DNA of 64,000 bases from Bradyrhizobium sp. CIAT3101. Its GTDB lineage: Bacteria > Pseudomonadota > Alphaproteobacteria > Rhizobiales > Xanthobacteraceae. The first letter of the stretch is position 1; each line of letters opens with the position of its first letter. Both the position numbers and the translations under genes were made by a program. Below are positions 894 through 59,451 of the stretch, in pieces. The stretch lies in NCBI RefSeq assembly GCF_029714945.1, contig NZ_CP121634.1, positions 8,701,001-8,765,000 of the forward strand, read 5' to 3'. Below the pieces are notes generated by a model. It was not told the origin of the DNA. It did no database searches and was given only the letters and a program-made list of their open reading frames with translations.

Positions 894-1740
894 TGTAATC
901 GCGCTTCAAAGTGTCCGGAATAGGCGGATGCGGGATGCTCCCACATACTGATGCATTCGCCGGTGTGTCGGAGGGCTTGTCTCAAGGAAGGTGCAAGGCC
1001 AACTTAGCGCCGAAAAGCAATCGAAATGATCCGAGTTGCTTTGCGCCCTACCTCTAACGCGCCCGGAGCCGGGTCGAGCGTTGCTTCAATCCGATAAAGC
1101 AAGGTCGCCTCGTCGCCACGCGCTACGATAAACTTGCAGCCGATTACTTTGCCTTCGTTCAGCTTGCATCTATCGGGCTCTGACTGCCGCCACATCAATC
1201 CGGTCCACGCCCTGGTTTCGAGAAACGTCAGAACATCATGCTGTCAGCGTGTCGGCATTGCACCCCATCAGAAATGATAGGTTCCAGCATCTCAGGCTTC
1301 TAAGGCTATCCTCCTCCTGGGGTATTCATGCGAGTGCTTAATAGTTCGCGCAGATTGCGCGAAAGGCAACCAAAACGGAGGCATGATGCCGTCTTCGCGG
1401 CGTCTGCCTATGGGCACAACAGCCACATGCCTATCCATCTTGGCACCCCACCCGCCCGGCGGCGCATCATGTCCCCTGCACAGTCTTGTTAAAAAAGGAT
1501 CTACCGATGTCCTTCTCGCCAAACCTACTTCCCGCCGCATAGCCGAGAGGGACTCCTCGACATTATCTCCCGCAAGACCCCGCTTACAGCGGTCCTCGAA
1601 GCAGCCGGGTTCGGCGTGTGGGCTTCGGCTTCAAGCAAATCGTCTTCATCACGGAAAAAAGGTAGCAGCATCGGTGCGGCTTTCCTCTGGGCACAAGTCT
1701 CCTAGTCTCATTTTTAGCCCCCCGGGGGGCGAATAAAGCG
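894..1740. other. gene-poor stretch, no supported gene
   Basis: No reading frame here has recognisable family features. A short minus-strand frame at about 1004-1198 looks like the tail of a decayed gene, but nothing decides it. A GC-rich palindrome (CCCCCCGGGGGG type) lies at about 1719-1730 beside the terminator hairpin of the DUF736 gene. Confidence 0.4.
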
Positions 1741-1767
1741 GCCCCGCCCGATGAGATCGGGCGGGGC
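1741..1767 (-). terminator. intrinsic-type terminator of the DUF736 gene
   Basis: A perfect 12-bp stem with a GAG loop (GCCCCGCCCGAT / ATCGGGCGGGGC). It starts 18 bases after the stop codon of the DUF736 gene. On the minus strand it is followed by CGCTTTATTC, so the run of T is short and termination may be only partly intrinsic. Position and symmetry support a transcript end for the minus-strand gene. Confidence 0.7.
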
Positions 1768-1784
1768 GTTGGCGTCGCGAGCGC

Positions 1785-2105
1785 TTACTCGCCGGTCTTG
1801 CGGGGGCGGGACCAGAGGAGCGTGTAGCCGTCGCCGGCTTCATCGTCGAACAGGTTCGCGTAAATCGGCGCGTTGAACGAGGGGTCATCGAGCTTGAGCG
1901 AGAGGTAGTCGCGGCCTTCCTCGGAGCGCTTCGACCAGGCTGCCCCGATTTCCGCCCGGCCCACATAGACGCGGTGGCTGGGAGCGTTCTCGTTTGAGCG
2001 GTTGGCCTCGGCGACGATGCGGACGCCCCTGGCCTGCAGACTCAGCGTGACGATCTCGCCCTGGAAGTCGTTGCCGACCTTTTTGAAAGTTCCGATGCTA
2101 GCCAT
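1785..2105 (-). CDS. DUF736 family protein
   Basis: A 106-residue soluble protein that matches the DUF736 family over its whole length. It has the N-terminal MASIGTFKKVGNDFQGEIVT block, the central SHRVYVGRAEIGAAW block and the C-terminal YLSLKLDDPSFNAPIYANL block, followed by a charged tail. DUF736 proteins are usual cargo of rhizobial plasmids and integrative conjugative elements, often near ParB, DUF2493 and toprim genes; their biochemical role is not known. An AAGGAG-type ribosome site sits just upstream of the ATG at 2105, and a strong hairpin follows the stop. The gene is intact although its neighbours are decayed, so it may be a surviving piece of a mobile-element backbone. The DUF2493 gene (13 kb) and toprim gene (16 kb) are probably from the same module. 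Confidence 0.85.
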   Translation of the reverse strand: MASIGTFKKVGNDFQGEIVTLSLQARGVRIVAEANRSNENAPSHRVYVGRAEIGAAWSKRSEEGRDYLSLKLDDPSFNAPIYANLFDDEAGDGYTLLWSRPRKTGE

Positions 2106-2289
2106 GTTACTTCTCCTTGAGTTGTTTCGAGCTCCGCGACCACCGCGGCCTCGATGGCGATCTGACGGCCGAAGACGATCGGCGACGCACCCGCTCTTTC
2201 GCGGGCCGGAGCGGAGCGGAGGATGCCGGCGGGGAGACTTTCTTGCCTCGCGAGGAATGGGCGTAGCCCAGGGGAAGAAAGTCTCTACC

Positions 2290-2450
2290 GGTGGCGTTGC
2301 GGCTCAGACGATCGAGGCGCAGCCGGTCTTCGGCCAGATCAAGCCAACGAGGCAAAGGTGCGTCCGAGCGCTGAACACAGACTTAAGCGGAACAAGACCT
2401 GGCAGAGGCGGCTTCGCAACACAAGAAGCAGGCCGGTTTCGAGGTAGAGA
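2290..2450 (+). mobile_element. possible DDE transposase C-terminal remnant
   Basis: A short frame reads QTIEAQPVFGQIK (about 2305-2343). This resembles the conserved TIEPVFGQIK segment near the C-terminus of IS1182-type transposases. Nothing upstream or downstream keeps the frame, so it would be a small fragment. The match is short and could be chance. The rest of 2106-2656 shows no gene. Confidence 0.28.
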
Positions 2451-2656
2451 AAGAAAGAGGATGCGGGAAACGGCGGCATTGTGGCTGAGTCAAATGCGAG
2501 ACCGCACCTCTCCCACAGACCACTGACAGCGCCGAATGGAATCGGCATAGCGTGATCTACCGCAACGAAGACCGCCGTCTTTTCTGGAGCTTTATCAATG
2601 ACAAACTGGGCGCATCCTTAGAATGGGAAGCAAGCCCAGATGCAGCGGGGCAAGGG

Positions 2657-3205
2657 CTATTCCTCACGTCTTTCGTCCGCCAGCCCTGCTTGAGGCAAAA
2701 CTGGTCCTGGCTGGCTCCCACTTGGCCCGTTAGGGGCAGCGATCTGCATCCAAGCCTTCCCGGCGATGAAGGTTGCGCCGACGCAGGCGAAGGCCTCACA
2801 CCAGAACGGCGACGTGACGCTCATCTGCGATAACGCGAGCGTCACATGGTAACCAGCGATTCCAGCCGGAATCGCAAAAACCGCGCCGATCGCGCCGCGC
2901 ACGATGACCTACCGTGTCACAGAATGGGCAAATTGAATAATAGCAAGCGTCAAGGCGGCACTGACGATCGCGATAGTCAGTACACTAGTAATGCCACTGC
3001 CTCGATCCAAGGCCATCACAGCGACGTTGACGGCAACAAAAAATGGGAGGGCGTATATTGCGAGAGCAACAGTCAGCCAGAACAGCAGACCGAGCCCCGC
3101 GAGATTGAGGGCAAGTCCAAGAGCGATCACGGTGGTGGTCCCGTTTGAAAGAGTAGCGACTGCGCCTCCACCACCACCACGGCGCACTTTATGGAATAGA
3201 TCCAA
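2657..3205 (-). pseudogene. small integral membrane protein, interrupted by an in-frame stop
   Basis: Two minus-strand pieces lie in the same reading frame. Residues 1-98 (3205 to 2909) begin MDLFHKVRRGGGGG and contain two or three membrane helices. A TAG stop follows at 2909-2911. The frame then continues, without a shift, as VIVRGAIGAVFAIPAGIAGY with another helix down to 2657. Joined, this is a protein of about 180 residues with four hydrophobic segments. A single nonsense codon in an otherwise smooth frame suggests recent inactivation, although the polar last 30 residues look unlike the rest and may reflect a further lesion. I do not recognise the family; the setting near DUF736 suggests a mobile-element accessory membrane protein. 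Confidence 0.55.
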
Positions 3206-45682: not shown

Positions 45683-46102
45683 ATGGCCAAGCTTGACGGA
45701 GAGCAACACCTCACACCACCGCCGCCAGTTGCAAACGCCGGTGAGGTCTTGCCAATCTCTAGGACCGAGCGTGATTTGCTCTGCGCGCTTTCCTATGTCC
45801 ATCTTGCATGCGGTCAGAGCGCACAGAGCCTGGCTCTCTTGCGAATAGTAGCTCACGAACATTCTCAGGACGTCGAGCTACTCCGCATTCTGGTCTACGC
45901 TCTCATCTCTGAGGGTCAGGGTGACGAAGCACTTGCTGCTTTGGATAGGCTAGACAAACTTGACGATCAGCCGTCTTCGCGTCTGCCTTTGATGGTCTTG
46001 CGCAGCCACGCGCTGCGTAACGCCGGTCGCATGGCCGAGGCTCGAGCAATCTTCAAGACCTATGTTTCATTGCGGAGCAGCGCAGCTCCAAACAAACGAT
46101 AG
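45683..46102 (+). CDS. small TPR-type T3SS protein, YscY/HrpG-like
   Basis: A 139-residue protein of paired helices: TERDLLCALSYVHLACGQSA, then LALLRIVAHEHSQDVELLRI, ISEGQGDEALAALDRLDKLD, and MVLRSHALRNAGRMAEARAI. These are three or four tetratricopeptide repeats, the build of YscY and related T3SS chaperones. It starts two bases after the preceding gene and its stop lies ten bases before the rhcV ATG at 46113. A chaperone role for the preceding protein and for RhcV function is inferred from the Yersinia arrangement. Confidence 0.65.
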   Translation: MAKLDGEQHLTPPPPVANAGEVLPISRTERDLLCALSYVHLACGQSAQSLALLRIVAHEHSQDVELLRILVYALISEGQGDEALAALDRLDKLDDQPSSRLPLMVLRSHALRNAGRMAEARAIFKTYVSLRSSAAPNKR

Positions 46103-46112
46103 TCGGCTTCTC

Positions 46113-48230
46113 ATGGCCAACATACTACGTACTCTCATTGTGCGCGCGCCGGCTAACCCGGATTTGATGGTCGCCTTGATGCTTCTTCTGGCGATCGGAA
46201 TGATGATCATGCCGATCCCGATCGTGGTAATCGACATGCTGATCGGGTTCAACCTCGGTTTTGCCGTACTGCTGCTGATGGTAGCACTTCATCTCAAGAC
46301 GCCACTTGATTTTTCGTCCTTGCCGGGTGTCATCCTTATCTCCACCGTCTTTCGTCTGGCTCTTACAGTCGCAACGACGCGGTTGATCCTCGCTGAGGGC
46401 GATGCCGGCAGCATCATTCATACGTTCGGCGACTTCGTCATATCAGGCAATATCGCTGTCGGATTGGTCATATTCCTAATTGTGACCATGGTGCAGTTCA
46501 TGGTTCTCGCCAAGGGCGCCGAACGGGTCGCAGAAGTGTCGGCGCGTTTCACGCTCGACGCGCTGCCCGGCAAGCAAATGGCAATCGACGCGGAACTGCG
46601 CAACGGGCACATCGATCAGCACGAAGCTCGCCGCCGGCGGGCCGCACTGGAGCAAGAAAGCCAACTTCACGGTGCCATGGACGGCGCTATGAAATTCGTG
46701 AAGGGCGACGCTATTGCCGGGCTCATAGTCATCGGCATTAACATGCTGGGCGGCATTACAATCGGCTTGCTCTCCAAGGGCATGCCCCTTGAGGAGGCAC
46801 TCCATCAATATACGATCTTAACCATCGGTGACGCGCTAATTTCGCAGATTCCGGCTCTGCTGCTATCAATTACAGCAGCAACCATTGTCACCCGCGTCAA
46901 TGGTCCTTCCAAGTTGAAGCTCGGTGCCGATATCGTCAGCCAACTGACGGCCAGCACACAAGCGCTCCGGTTGGCCGCTGGCGTCTTGATTGTGATGGGG
47001 CTCGTGCCGGGCTTCCCTTTGCCTCCGTTCATCATGCTTGCCGCGCTCTTCGGTGCAGCAAGCTTTGTCAATGTTGGTGTAGCCGGCGAGCAGGCCGCGG
47101 CCAAGGCAGGCGTTAGTACCACCGGTTCGCCTCCAGCTCCACTACAGGCTCCAAAGCAAGCCGTCCCTACAGAGGCACTGCCGATCGCGCTATTCCTCGC
47201 ACCAAATCTCTCACATGGGATCAATAAGGAGGAACTCGAGCAGTCTATCGGGCAGATTTCGGCACTCGTCTCATCTGATCTTGGTATCACAATTCCCCGC
47301 ATTCCCGTCCAAGCCGACAAGCACTTAGCGGAATCGGAGTTCAGGGTAGATGTTGAGGGAGTACCTGTCGGGCGAGATTTTGTTGACCCGATACAACTCC
47401 TGCTCAACGATGACGTCGCGAACATTGAATTAAGCGGTATCCCTTTTCGCAAAGACTTAGAGACAAATCGGGTCTGGATTGAACAAGGTCATGCGCCGGC
47501 TCTTAGAGCAGCCGGAATAGGGCATCACCGTGCGAGCGAGGTGATCGCCTTGCGCGTGCAGTCGACCCTCACCCGCTATGCACAGCGCCTGGTGGGCATT
47601 CAGGAGACCCGACAATTGCTCGGCCGCATGGAGCAGGAATATGCCGATCTTGTGAAGGAGGTGCTGCGCACGACCCCGGTGCCTCGGATCGCCGATGTCC
47701 TGCGCCGCTTACTGGACGAGGGAATCCCCATTCGCAACACTCGTCTAGTCCTTGAGGCGCTGGCGGAATGGAGCGAGCGCGAACAAAATGTCGTCCTGCT
47801 CACCGAATATGTTCGCTCCGGTCTGAAGCGGCAGATCTGTCATCGCTATGCCAACGCCCACCGTGTGGTGGCCGCCTTTATTGTTGAGCGTCAAACCGAG
47901 GATCTCGTGCGCGGTGCAGTGCGCGACACCGCTGTGGGGCCTTATCTGGTTTTGGAGGATCGCGAGAGCGAGATGTTGCTTTCGCAGTTCCGCAAGATCA
48001 ATTCGAGCGTTGCACGTGGTCAGAACCAACCCGTCATTCTGGGTTCAATGGATATCCGGCGTTTCCTCCGGGGCTTTCTGATCCGCAACGGCATCGACCT
48101 GCCTGTCCTGTCGTATCAAGATCTCGCTCCGGATTTTACGGTCCAGCCGATTGGATCGGTCAAGCTCGAAGCTTCAAAACATAACACCCCCTCAGGAGAG
48201 CGTCGTGACCCGATCGCCGCAGCCAGCTAA
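46113..48230 (+). CDS. rhcV: RhcV, T3SS export gate protein (SctV/LcrD/FlhA)
   Basis: A 705-residue protein from ATG 46113 (MANILRTLIVRAPANPDLMV); the frame is open to 46062. The first 330 residues hold seven or eight membrane helices, with the FHIPEP-like loop variant (SSLPGVILISTVFRLALTVA, then ARFTLDALPGKQMAIDAEL, which is the highly conserved export-gate block). The cytoplasmic domain runs from about residue 350 to the end, with GIPFRKDLETNRVWIEQGHA-type segments and RAAIVERQTEDL-like VERQTEDLVRGAVRD. It forms a nonameric ring taking proton energy and chaperoned substrates. No lesion. The last gene of the nopC operon. Confidence 0.96.
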   Translation: MANILRTLIVRAPANPDLMVALMLLLAIGMMIMPIPIVVIDMLIGFNLGFAVLLLMVALHLKTPLDFSSLPGVILISTVFRLALTVATTRLILAEGDAGSIIHTFGDFVISGNIAVGLVIFLIVTMVQFMVLAKGAERVAEVSARFTLDALPGKQMAIDAELRNGHIDQHEARRRRAALEQESQLHGAMDGAMKFVKGDAIAGLIVIGINMLGGITIGLLSKGMPLEEALHQYTILTIGDALISQIPALLLSITAATIVTRVNGPSKLKLGADIVSQLTASTQALRLAAGVLIVMGLVPGFPLPPFIMLAALFGAASFVNVGVAGEQAAAKAGVSTTGSPPAPLQAPKQAVPTEALPIALFLAPNLSHGINKEELEQSIGQISALVSSDLGITIPRIPVQADKHLAESEFRVDVEGVPVGRDFVDPIQLLLNDDVANIELSGIPFRKDLETNRVWIEQGHAPALRAAGIGHHRASEVIALRVQSTLTRYAQRLVGIQETRQLLGRMEQEYADLVKEVLRTTPVPRIADVLRRLLDEGIPIRNTRLVLEALAEWSEREQNVVLLTEYVRSGLKRQICHRYANAHRVVAAFIVERQTEDLVRGAVRDTAVGPYLVLEDRESEMLLSQFRKINSSVARGQNQPVILGSMDIRRFLRGFLIRNGIDLPVLSYQDLAPDFTVQPIGSVKLEASKHNTPSGERRDPIAAAS

Positions 48231-51626: not shown

Positions 51627-52279
51627 AAGCTCGCTCTCCACTGCCGCCTGCTCCCTTGGGACCTGCCGCTACGACCAGCTTGCAGTTGGCAGCCCTTTAA
51701 CATTCCAGCAATCGGCGTGCCACGTGTAAAATATCTTCTTCCTTGCGCAACGTGAAAGAAACACGCACGCATGCCGGTCGACGCACTGCAATGGGCCGCG
51801 ACACGTTGTCAGGCTCTCAACATTGAAATGTCAGCCGGGCATCCATGGCGCGACAAAGATAAAAAGATACGGATTGGTCTACCGCCCCAAAGGGCCCCTA
51901 CGTATGGCAGGGTGAAGTGTGCTATGCGATTTCACCTCAAGGCGCGCGAGGTTCGCTTGTAAAGCGCTGTCATGCAGTGAGGGCGATCCAAGAAACTGAG
52001 GTAAAATGCGATAGATTGACAACGAGCGTTGCATGCTATTTGGAAGCAAGCATCGTCTCACATGGAGTTGCCGGATGAGCCGCCTTCGCAGAAGCACATC
52101 CACAGACATCGCGCCTTTCATGAACGGAGCCGATGTCGCTTTGTCGGCCTGGACCGCGCCGCGATAATCCCAGATTGATTTAAGCCAAGAACCTGGGCTG
52201 CCGCCAAGCGTCGGTCTCGTCATTTCTCAGTTCTCGATCGCCTCGGACCACGCCGTGCTGCGCATCCTTGAGCCGACAA
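51627..52279. other. no supported gene
   Basis: Short unassigned frames between the FkbM remnant and the PurF-like gene, which is on the same strand. Confidence 0.35.
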
Positions 52280-53899
52280 TCAAAGACTCAGAACGGCTTT
52301 CATCGTCTGATCACAAGAGGGGGGCGATTCGGAGCATCGAACATCGGCCATTAATTCGCGCAAGCTTCTCTCGGCCCGCTTTTGGCCTGCAGGGGTTGGC
52401 ATCTCGAACGTAAACGGGGACAAATCGAAGCCGCTTTGCGTCCGGGGCAGCAAAGATCTTAGGAGCAGGAAAGGCAGATATGTTATCGTGGCTGCGTTGA
52501 TAGATGCCGCAATGCTACTTTCGATGGTCTGGAGAACTTGCAGCTCCATTCTGTGGAAGCGAAGTGCCTGCTTGCGCTGTTCGGGCGACAATTCTTTCCA
52601 TATCCGCCAAAATGCCAATTCATCTAGCGTATCGATACCCATGCCGTAGTAGTTCGGAGCCACTATAGGGGGCGATCCAAACACCCAATGTACGGCCTTG
52701 GCTCCCGCCGTAAGCAGCATACTCGTGACAGCCTCGCTCGTGTCCCCACGAATGAGGGCCTCATCGACCATTATTATCGTGCTATTCGCAAGGCTATTTC
52801 CCAAGGCGCGGTACTTTTGAGCAATGCGAGACCTTCGGTCGCTGAATGTGCCAATGAGAGTTCGCTGAAGAGTTTTTGTTGCGGCGACTTCCTGACGCTG
52901 GGCGAACACGCCGTAGTCGGCAAGAGATGCAAACAGGCCGTCGGCGTACGGCCCCCCAGTATGCGGCATGGAGGAAACAATAATGGGTGCCGAGCTCGGT
53001 TCTTTTTGCAGTCGCTTCGCAACAATGCCACCAAGGGCGAACCCGATGTTGTAACGGGTTTCGAGATGTGATTGGCCTTCGATCGATGTGTTCGGATTTC
53101 CTAAGTAGAGAGTTTCGTAGGCGCAGAGTTTGGCTTTGTATCGCCGGTTGCTCACGGGACCTTCAACGCAATGCCCCGTTTTCCCGTCTACAAACTTGAT
53201 GTGCCCCGGCAAGATCCGTTCGTTCTTACCCTCTAGGCCGGAAAAGGCACAATTTTCCGAAGCAAAGAGCAAGCACCCGTCAACCGTTTGCATTGCTTCC
53301 AGTGGTCGCAAACCACGTCGATTACGATACGCAATGAGATTCCCCTCTCCGTCTAGAATAAGGGCGCTAATTGCGCCATCAAACCGCCCATCAATCTCCC
53401 GAAAGATTTTTTCGTAGTTGACGGGTAGGCCGTGCCGCCAGAAGTCTCTTTGACAAGAGCATTCAATCCACTTCAGCAAGAGCTCAGCGTCTGTGTTGCC
53501 GCTTAACCTACGGCCCTGCGCGAGCAATTCTCCCCTGAGTTCTCCGCCGTTGACCAAAGCTCCATCCATAGAAATTGACAAATGGCGGCTAGTGCCCGCA
53601 TTTATATGAATTGGCTGAAGGTCGCCACCGCTGATCCCGCGGCGTTTGCTATGGATATGAGCGATTGCAACATGGGGTATAAAATTCGGATCGTCTTCAC
53701 CGTTCTCGATGAGCACCGAATCGCACGATGTCTGAAGCGCGCTAGCGTAGCGAACACCCTCCTTATGCATAAAAGTTGCGACGCCGATTCCCGCCTGCCC
53801 ACGAAGGGCAAGTTTCGGAACCATGTGCTTAAGCTGATCATAAACCGTTGCCCGTGAATTGCTTGAGGAGCATAGAAACGCAGCAGCAATACCGGACAT
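52280..53899 (-). CDS. PurF-like amidophosphoribosyltransferase homologue, catalytic Cys replaced by Ser
   Basis: A 539-residue protein with both PurF domains. An AAGGAGG site ten bases before ATG 53899 fixes the start at MSGIAAAFL, where enzymes have MCGI, so the N-terminal nucleophile is Ser, not Cys. The glutaminase domain also differs at HTRYSTTG (here AHIHSKRRGISGG, residues 80-92) and at the oxyanion Asn-Gly (here SMDGALVN, Asp112). The phosphoribosyltransferase domain keeps the C-A-Y-E-x-L-Y block (residue 260), RTLIGTFSDR, and a PRPP-like loop IIMVDEALIRGDTS (375-388), where DD is DE. The open frame is intact. A synthase without glutaminase activity or a non-catalytic relative are possibilities; the substrate is unknown. 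Confidence 0.85.
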   Translation of the reverse strand: MSGIAAAFLCSSSNSRATVYDQLKHMVPKLALRGQAGIGVATFMHKEGVRYASALQTSCDSVLIENGEDDPNFIPHVAIAHIHSKRRGISGGDLQPIHINAGTSRHLSISMDGALVNGGELRGELLAQGRRLSGNTDAELLLKWIECSCQRDFWRHGLPVNYEKIFREIDGRFDGAISALILDGEGNLIAYRNRRGLRPLEAMQTVDGCLLFASENCAFSGLEGKNERILPGHIKFVDGKTGHCVEGPVSNRRYKAKLCAYETLYLGNPNTSIEGQSHLETRYNIGFALGGIVAKRLQKEPSSAPIIVSSMPHTGGPYADGLFASLADYGVFAQRQEVAATKTLQRTLIGTFSDRRSRIAQKYRALGNSLANSTIIMVDEALIRGDTSEAVTSMLLTAGAKAVHWVFGSPPIVAPNYYGMGIDTLDELAFWRIWKELSPEQRKQALRFHRMELQVLQTIESSIAASINAATITYLPFLLLRSLLPRTQSGFDLSPFTFEMPTPAGQKRAERSLRELMADVRCSESPPSCDQTMKAVLSL

Positions 53900-55851
53900 G
53901 TTTTCAGTCCCTCCTTGAAGAATCGATGCCCTTGGGTCATCATAGGCGAATGTATTTGACCGCGAGCAATGAAGACGTGGCTCCGTCTCTCGTTAAGCAA
54001 GCGCCGTACCAGTCGTGAGGCGGCGCGGCTCGCGCCGTCAGTGCGACGGGACTGAAGAAAATCTCGCCATTTTGTTCGTGATAATCTCGCGTGGTTCAGA
54101 TCCAGACACGTTGTCTGAAACGCGACGCGTGAGTGCTCCTTCAAAATACACCAGGACGTCGGCGATGTTCTGGACGGCTCTGTCCCATTCTCCCGACCGA
54201 CCTCGCGCACCGAATTGTATGTCGCGGAGTTTCGTTTCGTTAGGTTCACCAGGGGAACGCCAGCGGCTTACTCGGTCGCACCGGCTTGATGGCAGCCAAT
54301 TCATAATCGGCGGATTCATTGCGCATCAGTTTGAATCATAGAAGTTCGACCGATCGCAACGCTCATCATGGCCAACTCCGGTTTGGCGGTTACGGGCAGA
54401 AGCGGACATCAACCCGACAACAACTCTCGCCGAATCCGCCGAAAACGCCCGTCGCGGAGTTGGCATAACTTTACTGTTCGTAATCAACGCAGGCGAGATT
54501 GCTGAAGATGCTGACGAGGATGCCCGACTTGAGACGCATTCTGGTCTTCGGTTGGCTCGGCCCGGCGATGAGCTTCTTAGTCATCGCCGCATTGACGGCC
54601 TCGGGCGGGTCCCACCAATTTCAGCAGCGGCAATTTTTCTTACCCATTGTTTATAATGTCGCGCTTATCTCATCCCGTTCGGGCGTGCGGGGCTCAACCA
54701 TCATCTGGCCAATTGCTGCCTCGCCAGCAATGATTGCAGGTATCATAGCTCTGGGAGGAAGGGGGATACACGTTTGATCGGCTATTGCGGTAGGGGCGGA
54801 CGTAGTGCCACTATTCACCGTATCCGTCTGCTTCTGCGCCCCCGGGCAAGGGCTGGCACCAAGATACACCGCGACACGTGACACATACGGCGTGCAAGCA
54901 GCGGTGCGGAAGCTGTCATCATGGTTTTAGCAGATCTTGAGTTCGACGCCCGTGCTGAGCTGGTGCACTTCATCCATGTCACCAGTCCCAGAGACGGGTA
55001 AGGTCCTGTACCAAAGCTGCGCCTTGAAGAGGAGTTATCTGCTTTCGGCCAATCATGACATTTGCTGCGGCTGCACAATGACGGTCGTATTAGAACGAAG
55101 CGACATCTATGAGCACGCCCCGTTAGTACAAAAAGTTGACCTTTAACTTCCGATCCTCTGTCCTGGCCGCGGACTGATCATGCTCGTGCGAGGCGGCCCT
55201 TTACACAGCGCGCATGACCATTGCTGCTCCCATAGAGTTTCTGATCCGCCGACCGAATCCTGATCAAACTCTCGTCAAGGGTACGACATTCAGAGAGCGT
55301 CGGGATTGGGATTGGGTGTTCCTGCCAGGTCGCAAGCGGTTTTGAACACCGCCGCTATCCCTTCCTGACCGGGAGGCTTCGCTCCAGCCCCTGTCTGTGT
55401 CGGTAGGCGCAGAACAAATGATATTGCTGTCCGTCGGCAAAATGTCGTAGCTTTTTCGCACCGCAGATCTGTTTTGCATCGCTATCTGTTTTACCCGGGG
55501 CTGGTTTTTTCATGTGAATTTTTTGACCTAGCGCGAAATCTGACTTTCATGGGCCGCCATTTGGCGGCCTCTTCTCTAAGATCGCAAGTAGGCTGCATTT
55601 GCATTGTCGCGCATACGCGCATTGCGTACCAACTCTATCCTGCGAGCTCCAGCAAGCAGGTCCAACCGGGTCCGGCTGGTTCCGTGAACTGAAGTAGCGT
55701 GGCTATCGAATAGTACCTGTTGTGCGACGGAATGGGCGGGCAACCGATTTTTAGAAGGGGCACCGACTGGATCATGCGCATCGCGGGCCGCGAGGCTGCT
55801 TTAAAGTGACCGCCACTTGATCGTCGATGGTGTGACCGCCTGCCCCAAAGA
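53900..55851. other. gene-poor stretch, no supported gene
   Basis: Nearly 2 kb without a convincing gene. A plus-strand frame at 54499-54777 encodes a 92-residue hydrophobic stretch (two or three possible helices: LVFGWLGPAMSFLVIAALTA and STIIWPIAASPAMIAGIIAL), perhaps a membrane-protein remnant. The rest holds short frames only. Confidence 0.35.
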
Positions 55852-56459: not shown

Positions 56460-57410
56460 TCAGGGGGCCTCAGCTCCCTCCATCGTCTCGGCGATCACCG
56501 CATCGGGCAAATAGCCGAGGATATAGTCCGCGGCCTTGCTAGCCTGGCTTGCGGCACGAACGATCGCGCGATTGTCCTCCCGCAGAACTTCCAACCAGGA
56601 GGCGACGTAGTCGGCATGCCGTACTGTCGGAACGATTCCGAGCGAGGCACAGGAGAACGCGGCGGACAGCTCCGCTATCAACTCCTCAAACGCGTACTTC
56701 CTGGTGCCAAAAGAGCCACTGAGATCGCGGTTGAGCCGTGAAGAATGACCGCTTGCGTGGCCAAGCTCGTGGAGCGCCGTGCGATGCCAATTGATCGGCT
56801 CGAAGTAGGCCTGCGGCGGCGGCACCTGCACATAGTCTTCTGTCGGCACATAGAAGGCACGATCACCGCCCATGCGGAACTCAATGCCAGTCGACTTGAT
56901 CAGGGCTTCGACAGCTGGCTCGATCATTCCCTGCTGCCGAGGAGGCGCAGTAGCCGCGATTTCCGAAGGCAGGCCGTCGCACTGATCCGCATTAAAGACT
57001 GTAAAACGCTTCAAGAAGGGAATCGACAGCGCTTCCTCACCGGTCTCTGCAGCTCGGCGCTTTTCATCATTCGGTACGAAGCGGTCAGCATAAAGCACTG
57101 TCGTACCACGCTCGCCCTTTCGCACATGACCGCCGAGCGAGAGCGCCTGGCGGAAGGTGAGCCAGCTCTGACCAGCGAAGCCACGCTCGATGACCGCGCC
57201 CCAAAGGATCAGGACATTGATGCCGCTGTAGTGCCGCTTGGTCGAGGCATTGTTCGGCATGGCAAGCGGGGCCTTTGCCGCCGCTGTCCCCCAAGGCTGC
57301 ACCCATGGAACTCGGCCGGCCTCGAGCTCGGCAATGATCTTATCGGTAATTTCGTCATAAAGGCCTGCCCGGTTCTGCCCGGTCCCGCTGCGAGGATGCC
57401 GTTTGGACAT
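56460..57410 (-). CDS. ArdC-like antirestriction/zincin protein
   Basis: A 316-residue protein from ATG 57410 (MSKRHPRSGTGQNRAGLYDE). The N-terminal ssDNA-binding domain of the ArdC type covers residues about 15-140 (RVPWVQPWG, then SGINVLILWGAVIERGFAGQ, SWLTFRQALSLGGHVRKGER). The C-terminal zincin-like metalloprotease domain has HELGHASGH with the zinc-binding histidines (about residues 214-222) and FEELIAELSAAF, which supplies a further ligand. ArdC proteins protect incoming plasmid DNA against restriction in conjugation. Here it probably belongs to the mobile-element backbone with DUF736, DUF2493 and toprim. A decayed second copy is at 26.8-27.4 kb. Confidence 0.9.
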   Translation of the reverse strand: MSKRHPRSGTGQNRAGLYDEITDKIIAELEAGRVPWVQPWGTAAAKAPLAMPNNASTKRHYSGINVLILWGAVIERGFAGQSWLTFRQALSLGGHVRKGERGTTVLYADRFVPNDEKRRAAETGEEALSIPFLKRFTVFNADQCDGLPSEIAATAPPRQQGMIEPAVEALIKSTGIEFRMGGDRAFYVPTEDYVQVPPPQAYFEPINWHRTALHELGHASGHSSRLNRDLSGSFGTRKYAFEELIAELSAAFSCASLGIVPTVRHADYVASWLEVLREDNRAIVRAASQASKAADYILGYLPDAVIAETMEGAEAP

Positions 57411-58020: not shown

Positions 58021-59451
58021 TTACGAGGTTGCGGGACACCGCGGAGCAAACCGGCTCGCCAGCAGCAGGAAACGCGTCACGAGAAAAGACGCATAGATGG
58101 TCGTCCCAACTGACAAACCAATCCAGATACCAATCGCACCAAGTCCAATCTTCAAACCGAGCACGTAACTAAGGGTGAAGCCGATTAACCAATTAGCTAC
58201 GCAGGCGAAAAGAAGCGGGATGCGAGTGTCCTTCAGTCCACGCAAGCCGCCCGCCGCAATGTGCTGAGCGGCATCACTGATAAAGAAGCTCGCGCCGACC
58301 AAAAGGAGGTTGGCCGCCAAGTCTGTCGTCGCGTCGGCACCCTCAGTCGTATCGTCCACAAACAGGCCGACGATTTCAAACCGTACGGCGACAACCGCGA
58401 TAGTCAGTACCGCAGCAGCCATAATGCCAAGGAGTATAGCAATGATCCCAGCTCTTTTGACGCCCGGACCGTCCTGGCGACCTACGGCGTGACCGACGCG
58501 CACGGCCGCCGCCGTGCTTATGCCTACTGGAACCACGAATAGGACCGTGTCGACCTGAAGGGCGATCTGATGGGCAGTAAGCGCTCTAATGCTGACGAGG
58601 CCGGCCAGGAGCCCCGCGGCCAAAAACAGTCCGCCTTGCAGCAAAACAATGAATGAGACCGGAATTCCCATCGCGATTAAACGCTTCATGAACGGCCAAT
58701 CGAATTGCCGCAGACGCGCCAGCACGTGATAGTCGCGGAAAGGGGAGCGCATTGTTGCGAACCACAACACGACCAAGAACATCGTAAAGTTCACGAAGCT
58801 GCTCGCAAGGCCGGCCCCGAAAAGCCCAAGTGGCGGCAGGCCAAGCTTCCCATAGATGAGCAAATAAGCCATGAGCGCATTGAGAGGAATGGACCCAATC
58901 GTAATCCACAAAACCGGCTGCGGCCGGTGGACCGCAGCCATGAAGTTGCGAAACCCGTGAAAACCCAGGGCCGGCACCACGCCAAAGGCTAGTCCGAGCA
59001 GGTATTGCTGCGCGAGGCGCGCCACCTCGGGCGCTTGACCGAAAGTGAGGAGTGCTCGTTCTCCGTTTAGCGCAAAGGCAATGATCGGAAGCGATAGCAG
59101 CAGGGCCGCCCAAAGTCCCATGCGCACCGTGCGTCTGAGCGCGGCCAGGTTTTTCGCTCCGAACGCCTGCGCTGCCAGCGGCGCGATCGGGGCCAGCAAA
59201 CCGACGCCGAGTGTGAAACCGATGAGGAAGATCACGACACCCAGTGCTGCCGCAGCAAGCGCCTCGGGACCGAGGCCTCCTATCAGCGCGAGATCGGTCG
59301 TCATCATCACGACTTGCCCAAGCTGCGTCAGCACCATTGGCCATGCGAGCTTCGCAAGTTCAGCAAACTCGATAACGAGCTGATGATAATCCAACGGTGT
59401 CGTGCGCTTGTGCTGGAAGTCCAGCACTTCTTTTTTCACTCGTTTATCCAT
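58021..59451 (-). CDS. MATE-family efflux transporter (NorM type)
   Basis: A 476-residue inner-membrane protein with twelve membrane helices. Features are LAWPMVLTQLGQVVMMTTDL at the start of the first half, GPEALAAAALG, then RTVRMGLWAALLL. In the second half, VGISTAAAVRVGHAVGRQDG and ISDAAQHIAAGGLRGLKDTR are the conserved MATE blocks (around residues 325 and 395). MATE proteins export cationic drugs or plant phenolics with Na+ or H+. Close relatives in rhizobia may deal with plant compounds; that is an inference. Starts at 59451. No lesion, and no regulator beside it. Confidence 0.95.
   Translation of the reverse strand: MDKRVKKEVLDFQHKRTTPLDYHQLVIEFAELAKLAWPMVLTQLGQVVMMTTDLALIGGLGPEALAAAALGVVIFLIGFTLGVGLLAPIAPLAAQAFGAKNLAALRRTVRMGLWAALLLSLPIIAFALNGERALLTFGQAPEVARLAQQYLLGLAFGVVPALGFHGFRNFMAAVHRPQPVLWITIGSIPLNALMAYLLIYGKLGLPPLGLFGAGLASSFVNFTMFLVVLWFATMRSPFRDYHVLARLRQFDWPFMKRLIAMGIPVSFIVLLQGGLFLAAGLLAGLVSIRALTAHQIALQVDTVLFVVPVGISTAAAVRVGHAVGRQDGPGVKRAGIIAILLGIMAAAVLTIAVVAVRFEIVGLFVDDTTEGADATTDLAANLLLVGASFFISDAAQHIAAGGLRGLKDTRIPLLFACVANWLIGFTLSYVLGLKIGLGAIGIWIGLSVGTTIYASFLVTRFLLLASRFAPRCPATS

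Follow-up and report, generated by a model that had tools for sequence, protein, structure and literature searches.

What does a PurF-like protein do when serine takes the place of its catalytic cysteine? The question is raised by a gene in a 64,000-nucleotide stretch of the chromosome of Bradyrhizobium sp. CIAT3101 (the window). The genome (9.37 Mb, one contig) contains a separate, normal purF gene 3.5 Mb away (L002/L039, 497 bits). Existing annotations label the gene 'hypothetical protein' or 'amidophosphoribosyltransferase', and we found no published account of it in the openly licensed literature, which was covered mostly as titles and the starts of abstracts.

A PurF-like family with an altered glutaminase site

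The gene encodes a 539-residue protein that starts MSGIAAAF (Table 1). An initial annotation of the DNA proposed that a strong ribosome-binding site fixes the start, placing Ser directly after Met, and this assignment holds: a Shine–Dalgarno sequence precedes the frame, and its Met codon is the first possible start behind the preceding stop codon, which leaves no start further upstream. The same annotation described a frame that remains open and retains both PurF domains. This is also the case, with eight PurF sequences of solved structure matching both halves of the protein (E 1.5e-28 to 2.1e-16). The NCBIfam equivalog profile for PurF (TIGR01134) matches residues 28–430 with 120.3 bits against a cut-off of 350. 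A Pfam search recognizes the amidotransferase half alone, and the Pfam phosphoribosyltransferase domain PF00156 is not detected in the 539-residue protein.

Table 1 Features of the purF-like locus. Positions refer to the window, except for L041, which is given in genome coordinates.
Feature	Position	Strand	Details
purF-like gene, 539 aa, Ser at residue 2	52280..53899	-	ORF and profile/protein matches
PRPP loop DEALIRGDTS, residues 379–388 (PurF: DDSIVRGTTS)	52736..52765	-	
Shine–Dalgarno AAGGAGG	53910..53916	-	read directly from the sequence
σ54 −24/−12 promoter-like site TGGTACGGCGCTTGCT	53996..54011	-	begins 112 bp before the start codon
Second NifA-like site TGTCTGGATCTGAACC	54093..54108	-	one mismatch; spaced 19 bp from the NifA-like site listed next
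NifA upstream activator-like site CGTCGCGTTTCAGACA	54112..54127	-	one mismatch to TGT-N10-ACA
Own-genome HAD operon (L041)	8251319-8252306		NifA-type site, σ54 promoter, purF-like end, HAD
Second σ54-like site TGGCACGCCGATTGC	51708-51722	-	downstream of the purF-like gene
SctV/RhcV type III export gate	46062-48230	+	open frame; TIGR01399, 911 bits
Ser-rich ORF, 272 aa	49283-50101	-	near the type III gene
ArdC-type antirestriction/metallopeptidase protein	56460-57410	-	
MATE transporter	58021-59451	-	

A protein search returned 72 close relatives (P0001–P0072), set off from true PurF by a jump in E from 2e-93 to 1e-27; a further search gave a similar picture. Those bearing names are nearly all from Bradyrhizobium, joined by two from Rhizobium and two from mycobacteria; the mycobacterial pair (P0071 and P0072) share 35–36% identity and lack Cys at residue 2. 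In a tree of 65 sequences, 55 members form one clade on a long branch apart from 10 PurFs (local support 0.90), within which the grouping of the rhizobial, P. phymatum and P0070 members has a support of only 0.04. Judged by its sequence, the protein is a glutaminase-dead PurF paralogue that lies outside PurF proper.

We aligned 54 family members with 11 PurFs (one incomplete), using the residue numbering of Serratia PurF in L075. The family shares with PurF the two-domain layout and, in the amidotransferase half, R26, G27, Q28, G102 and D127, with E209 likewise kept. It differs at the positions that we take to form the glutamine site (R73 and Y74) and the oxyanion hole (N101), as well as at the catalytic residue itself. 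The window equivalents of C1, R73, Y74 and N101 are Ser2, H83, S84 and D112.

To examine residue 2 independently of annotated starts, we used a DNA-level set in which this residue was left free and which covers every one of the 91 full-length hits from the loci retrieved. Ser2 is present in 48 of the 49 distinct full-length rhizobial copies and Pro in the remaining one (L056), confirming the replacement reported by the initial annotation and extending it beyond the window. Among the 54 aligned members the Cys1 position is occupied by Ser in 50, Ala in 2 (P0072 and P. phymatum), Pro in 1 (P0012) and Arg in 1 (P0071). None of the 72 family proteins, about 20 of which have shortened annotated starts, has MCG near its start. 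Thus, no member examined has Cys, which is usually, though not necessarily, replaced by Ser. The remainder of the site is less uniform. The HTRYSTTG loop and the oxyanion Asn were also described as changed, which is true of the window protein but only partly of the family, where the Arg at position 73 is retained in 37 of 54 members (His in 12) whereas Tyr is not among the four commonest residues at position 74. The N101 position is Asp in 44, Asn in 9 and Ser in 1, so that the pairing of Ser with Asp112 suggested as a family signature is near-constant for the Ser only.

Pairwise dN/dS between the window gene and 34 others is 0.107–0.283 for 33 pairs, many with dS values above 1, and could not be computed for one pair with saturated dS; the median over 210 pairs with dS of 0.1–1.2 is 0.23. 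The 35 copies in this set, which also supplied our first promoter table, were chosen by a start pattern that required Ser, and their 35/35 Ser is therefore no evidence on residue 2. Values are similar in the N-terminal half (0.22), the phosphoribosyltransferase half (0.22) and the tail (0.23), showing that the non-catalytic amidotransferase half is as constrained as the other parts. Neither a relative with MCG near its start, among the 72 family proteins, nor relaxed selection with dN/dS near 1 was encountered, which supports the earlier proposal of a new function rather than decay.

In the phosphoribosyltransferase half, R332, R342, K349 and Y258 are kept in 54/54 members, T374 in 53/54 and R371 in 51/54, at positions that we presume to form the phosphoribosyltransferase site. 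L415 is also kept and position 335 is I, L or V. Set against these are fixed changes relative to PurF (D367E, S368A, T373D, P300S and A417F, with D408G in 41/54), several of which alter the PRPP loop to DEALIRGDT from DDSIVRGTT. In our reading, the glutaminase is dead and the phosphoribosyltransferase site has been kept in re-tuned form, and the protein is likely to work like a phosphoribosyltransferase. Its use of PRPP is not certain, because PF00156 is undetected and D367E, S368A and T373D occur throughout the family.

Promoter motifs and restriction to nodulating genomes

The two NifA-like sites in the window lie 97 and 116 bp upstream of the σ54 element. In the available parts of PMC3538637 and PMC4999443 the −24/−12 consensus is given as TGGCACG-N4-TTGCW. 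Counting copies with at least 250 bp of upstream sequence, the pattern TGGYAYR-N4-TTGC is found 52–170 bp upstream of 49/49 distinct full-length copies, against a background of 9 in 3,053 random 350-bp windows from 34 loci. The element is present in 34 of 35 non-duplicate copies of the first set, the exception being an 84-codon remnant (L028). For truncated copies in the larger set, the site is found in L027, L084 and L115 and not in the P. phymatum fragment. A perfect TGT-N10-ACA is present 70–140 bp upstream of the −24 element in 14/49 copies (1.4% in shuffles), and one with at most one mismatch in the same range in 41/49 (24% in shuffles); the gene copies are related, and these counts are therefore not independent.

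Across the Bradyrhizobium sp. CIAT3101 genome there are 30 strict σ54 sites, compared with 6 in a reversed control, and 18 of them fall at 8.25–8.87 Mb. One of the 30 lies 133 bp upstream of a nifH match, which supports the pattern. One NifA protein scores over the cut-off in this genome, at 8.38 Mb. From these motifs, the gene is probably transcribed by σ54 RNA polymerase with NifA, which would place its expression in nitrogen-fixing bacteroids. The second σ54-like site in the window reads away from the purF-like gene and has no clear gene behind it.

The gene is present in 68 of 265 Bradyrhizobium genomes (E<=1e-40) and nodA in 139 (E<=1e-20); all 68 carriers are nodA+ (Fisher p 2e-24). In the 19 genomes compared by position, 16–491 kb separate the gene from nodA. 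A search of 397 genomes of the order (141 genera) at 1e-60 gave matches in two Bradyrhizobium only. In G198, which belongs to the species of the window genome, nodA is present without a purF-like match, indicating that the gene is an accessory trait. In the window genome the distance to nodA is 358 kb, and nifH and nifA are about 0.4 Mb off on the same chromosome, in keeping with the symbiosis-island setting suggested earlier.

A phosphatase partner and a linked uptake cluster

Inspection of gene neighbourhoods, as the initial annotation had recommended, shows that 61 of the 63 loci matched by the purF-like gene (partly redundant) also match a HAD phosphatase, the two exceptions being the window and P. 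phymatum. In 22 of 27 rows, −4 to +23 bp separate the purF-like and HAD genes, and the purF-like P0070 and HAD P0175 are probably on one contig (10,439 bases). A third operon gene, hydroxyacid-dehydrogenase-like (NAD_binding_2, NAD_binding_11), is found in 44 loci and missing from many; it has no close homologue in the window genome (best 30%). No mycobacterial name occurs among the 120 of 190 HAD matches listed, many of which are nameless. The purF-like gene of P. phymatum is neighboured by genes for a GHMP kinase, a PLP enzyme and MaoC. In several loci (L031, L086–L088, L096 and L104–L108) genes for a LacI-type regulator and an enoyl-CoA hydratase lie upstream of the operon; the available part of PMC3538637 describes the Mesorhizobium regulator FixV as of LacI/GalR type too.

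In the window genome the operon is split. Locus L041 has a perfect NifA-type site and an intact HAD gene, and all that remains of the purF-like gene between promoter and HAD is its last part: DNA similarity resumes at about codon 475, and a weaker match at the protein level, starting at residue 458, contains a stop. The window gene stands alone, 0.5 Mb from this HAD gene, with its own promoter. Since L041 keeps promoter and HAD and has lost most purF-like codons, both pieces lie under separate nif-type promoters, an arrangement that would be expected if both functions were still needed together.

A same-strand cluster adjoins the HAD gene at L041. It encodes a solute-binding protein, two permeases, a ribokinase-like kinase (288.5 bits, below the ribokinase cut-off of 299.65), an SDR, a HAD-IIA phosphatase, an ABC ATPase, a PEP-hydrolase/σ54-activator fusion, a UPF0261 protein, a PEP-hydrolase-like protein and an FAD oxidoreductase. 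The purF–HAD operon is inside this cluster in L081/L082 and L083, and adjoins part of it in Rhizobium calliandrae (L012) and Mesorhizobium (L017). In L081, an anthranilate synthase pair (TrpE/TrpG-like, 1013-3102) is found upstream of the solute-binding protein gene.

Using the PEP-hydrolase/σ54-activator fusion as a marker for the cluster (E<=1e-100), we detected it in 47 of 265 genomes (once at 39% identity and once split), 43 of which are carriers of the purF-like gene. Among nodA+ genomes the marker is present in 43/68 carriers versus 4/71 non-carriers (p 1.4e-13), leaving 25/68 carriers without it. Marker and purF-like gene share a contig in 33 of the 43 genomes, 3.4–72.9 kb apart; distances were taken to the nearest copy and, for the window genome, from the copy at HAD, the window gene being 0.5 Mb off. 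No σ54 promoter was found before cluster genes at the 15 starts tested, as expected if catabolism is regulated separately. A scan of 16 neighbour proteins found no nucleosidase.

Candidate functions

The combination of a re-tuned phosphoribosyltransferase, a phosphatase partner, nif-type promoter motifs and linked uptake genes can be accommodated by a scheme to which we give an even chance, in which a phosphoribosyltransferase with a dead glutaminase, belonging to the NifA regulon, makes a ribosylated nodule metabolite, following the logic of rhizopines. The regulatory part of this proposal is read from promoter motifs; catalysis, substrate, product and ecological role are inferred. σ54 polymerase and NifA would switch the purF-like gene on in nitrogen-fixing bacteroids, where its phosphoribosyltransferase half would move ribose 5-phosphate from PRPP onto an amine other than glutamine-derived ammonia, the acceptor being free ammonia or a small nitrogen compound. 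The partner HAD phosphatase, acting in trans in the window genome, would strip the 5′-phosphate to give an N-riboside. This would leave the bacteroid and be taken up by free-living siblings, in which it would be used as rhizopines are, by way of the ABC sugar transporter, the ribokinase-like kinase and the oxidoreductases.

According to the available parts of PMC10107442, PMC3538637, PMC8416774 and PMC10591227, the mos/moc system of Sinorhizobium meliloti has NifA-type promoters on the synthesis genes and linked genes for uptake and catabolism. The purF-like locus may resemble it in both respects, given its promoter motifs and a linked cluster whose marker is present in 43/68 carriers, and it is likewise confined to the nodulating population and accessory there. 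The two differ: rhizopines are inositol-derived (PMC10591227, in the part available), whereas the locus described here combines PurF-like and HAD phosphatase genes with a cluster that includes a ribokinase-like kinase. A stronger form of the proposal, that Cys-less PurF and HAD under NifA produce a riboside for uptake by kin and so constitute a second rhizopine system that is unrelated in its chemistry and common in Bradyrhizobium, is more tentative and in our estimate rather doubtful. The product may be a riboside of the rhizolotine kind, in which case these would be its biosynthetic genes; rhizolotine, which we take to be a riboside opine-like compound of Lotus nodules, could likewise be made by a phosphoribosyltransferase and a phosphatase. 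The term had no match in the openly licensed papers searched. If the proposal is correct, this gene would become a nitrogen-fixation-coupled metabolic locus in about half of the nodA+ Bradyrhizobium genomes examined (68/139), would show how PurF can be re-tooled once its glutaminase is lost, and would add a second rhizopine-like currency, open to testing, to symbionts that matter in agriculture.

PurF without glutaminase can still use free ammonia, and the protein could accordingly be an ammonia-dependent isozyme that converts NH3 and PRPP to 5-phosphoribosylamine for purine synthesis in ammonia-rich bacteroids. The nif-type promoter would put it where ammonia is made, and the retention of R332, K349, Y258 and L415, with I, L or V at I335, fits such an activity. 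We nevertheless consider it unlikely, given that the conserved HAD partner is ill-suited to the purine pathway, that near-invariant PurF residues consistently differ (D367E, S368A, T373D, A417F and, in 41/54, D408G) and that a normal purF is retained in the genome. The initial annotation had left the choice between an ammonia-dependent or other transferase and a regulator; a transferase is the best reading, and a non-catalytic sensor of PRPP or nucleotides that regulates purine or symbiotic metabolism is improbable. Several catalytic residues are lost yet conservation is strong, as a sensor would allow, but R332, R342 and K349 are invariant and the operon partner is a hydrolase, not a target pathway.

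Less probable still is that Ser1, bared by removal of Met, serves as a working N-terminal nucleophile towards a different amide. Such a role would suit the near-universal Ser2 of the rhizobial copies and the conserved equivalents of D127, R26 and G102; it sits poorly with the unconserved oxyanion Asn, with Pro in one full-length rhizobial copy (L056) and with Ala in Mycobacterium sp. CBMA271 and the Paraburkholderia fragment. These Pro and Ala relatives weaken the case for Ser2 as an indispensable nucleophile. Local mutation or a decaying pseudogene, for which truncated copies elsewhere (L027, L084 and L115) and the deleted operon copy in the window genome might speak, we reject as having almost no chance, because dN/dS of the window gene is 0.11–0.28, frame and promoter motif are intact and Ser is common to the family.

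As for other features of the window, the Ser-rich ORF gave no Pfam or NCBIfam match at E 0.01; from its position near the type III export gate gene, it might encode a secreted protein.
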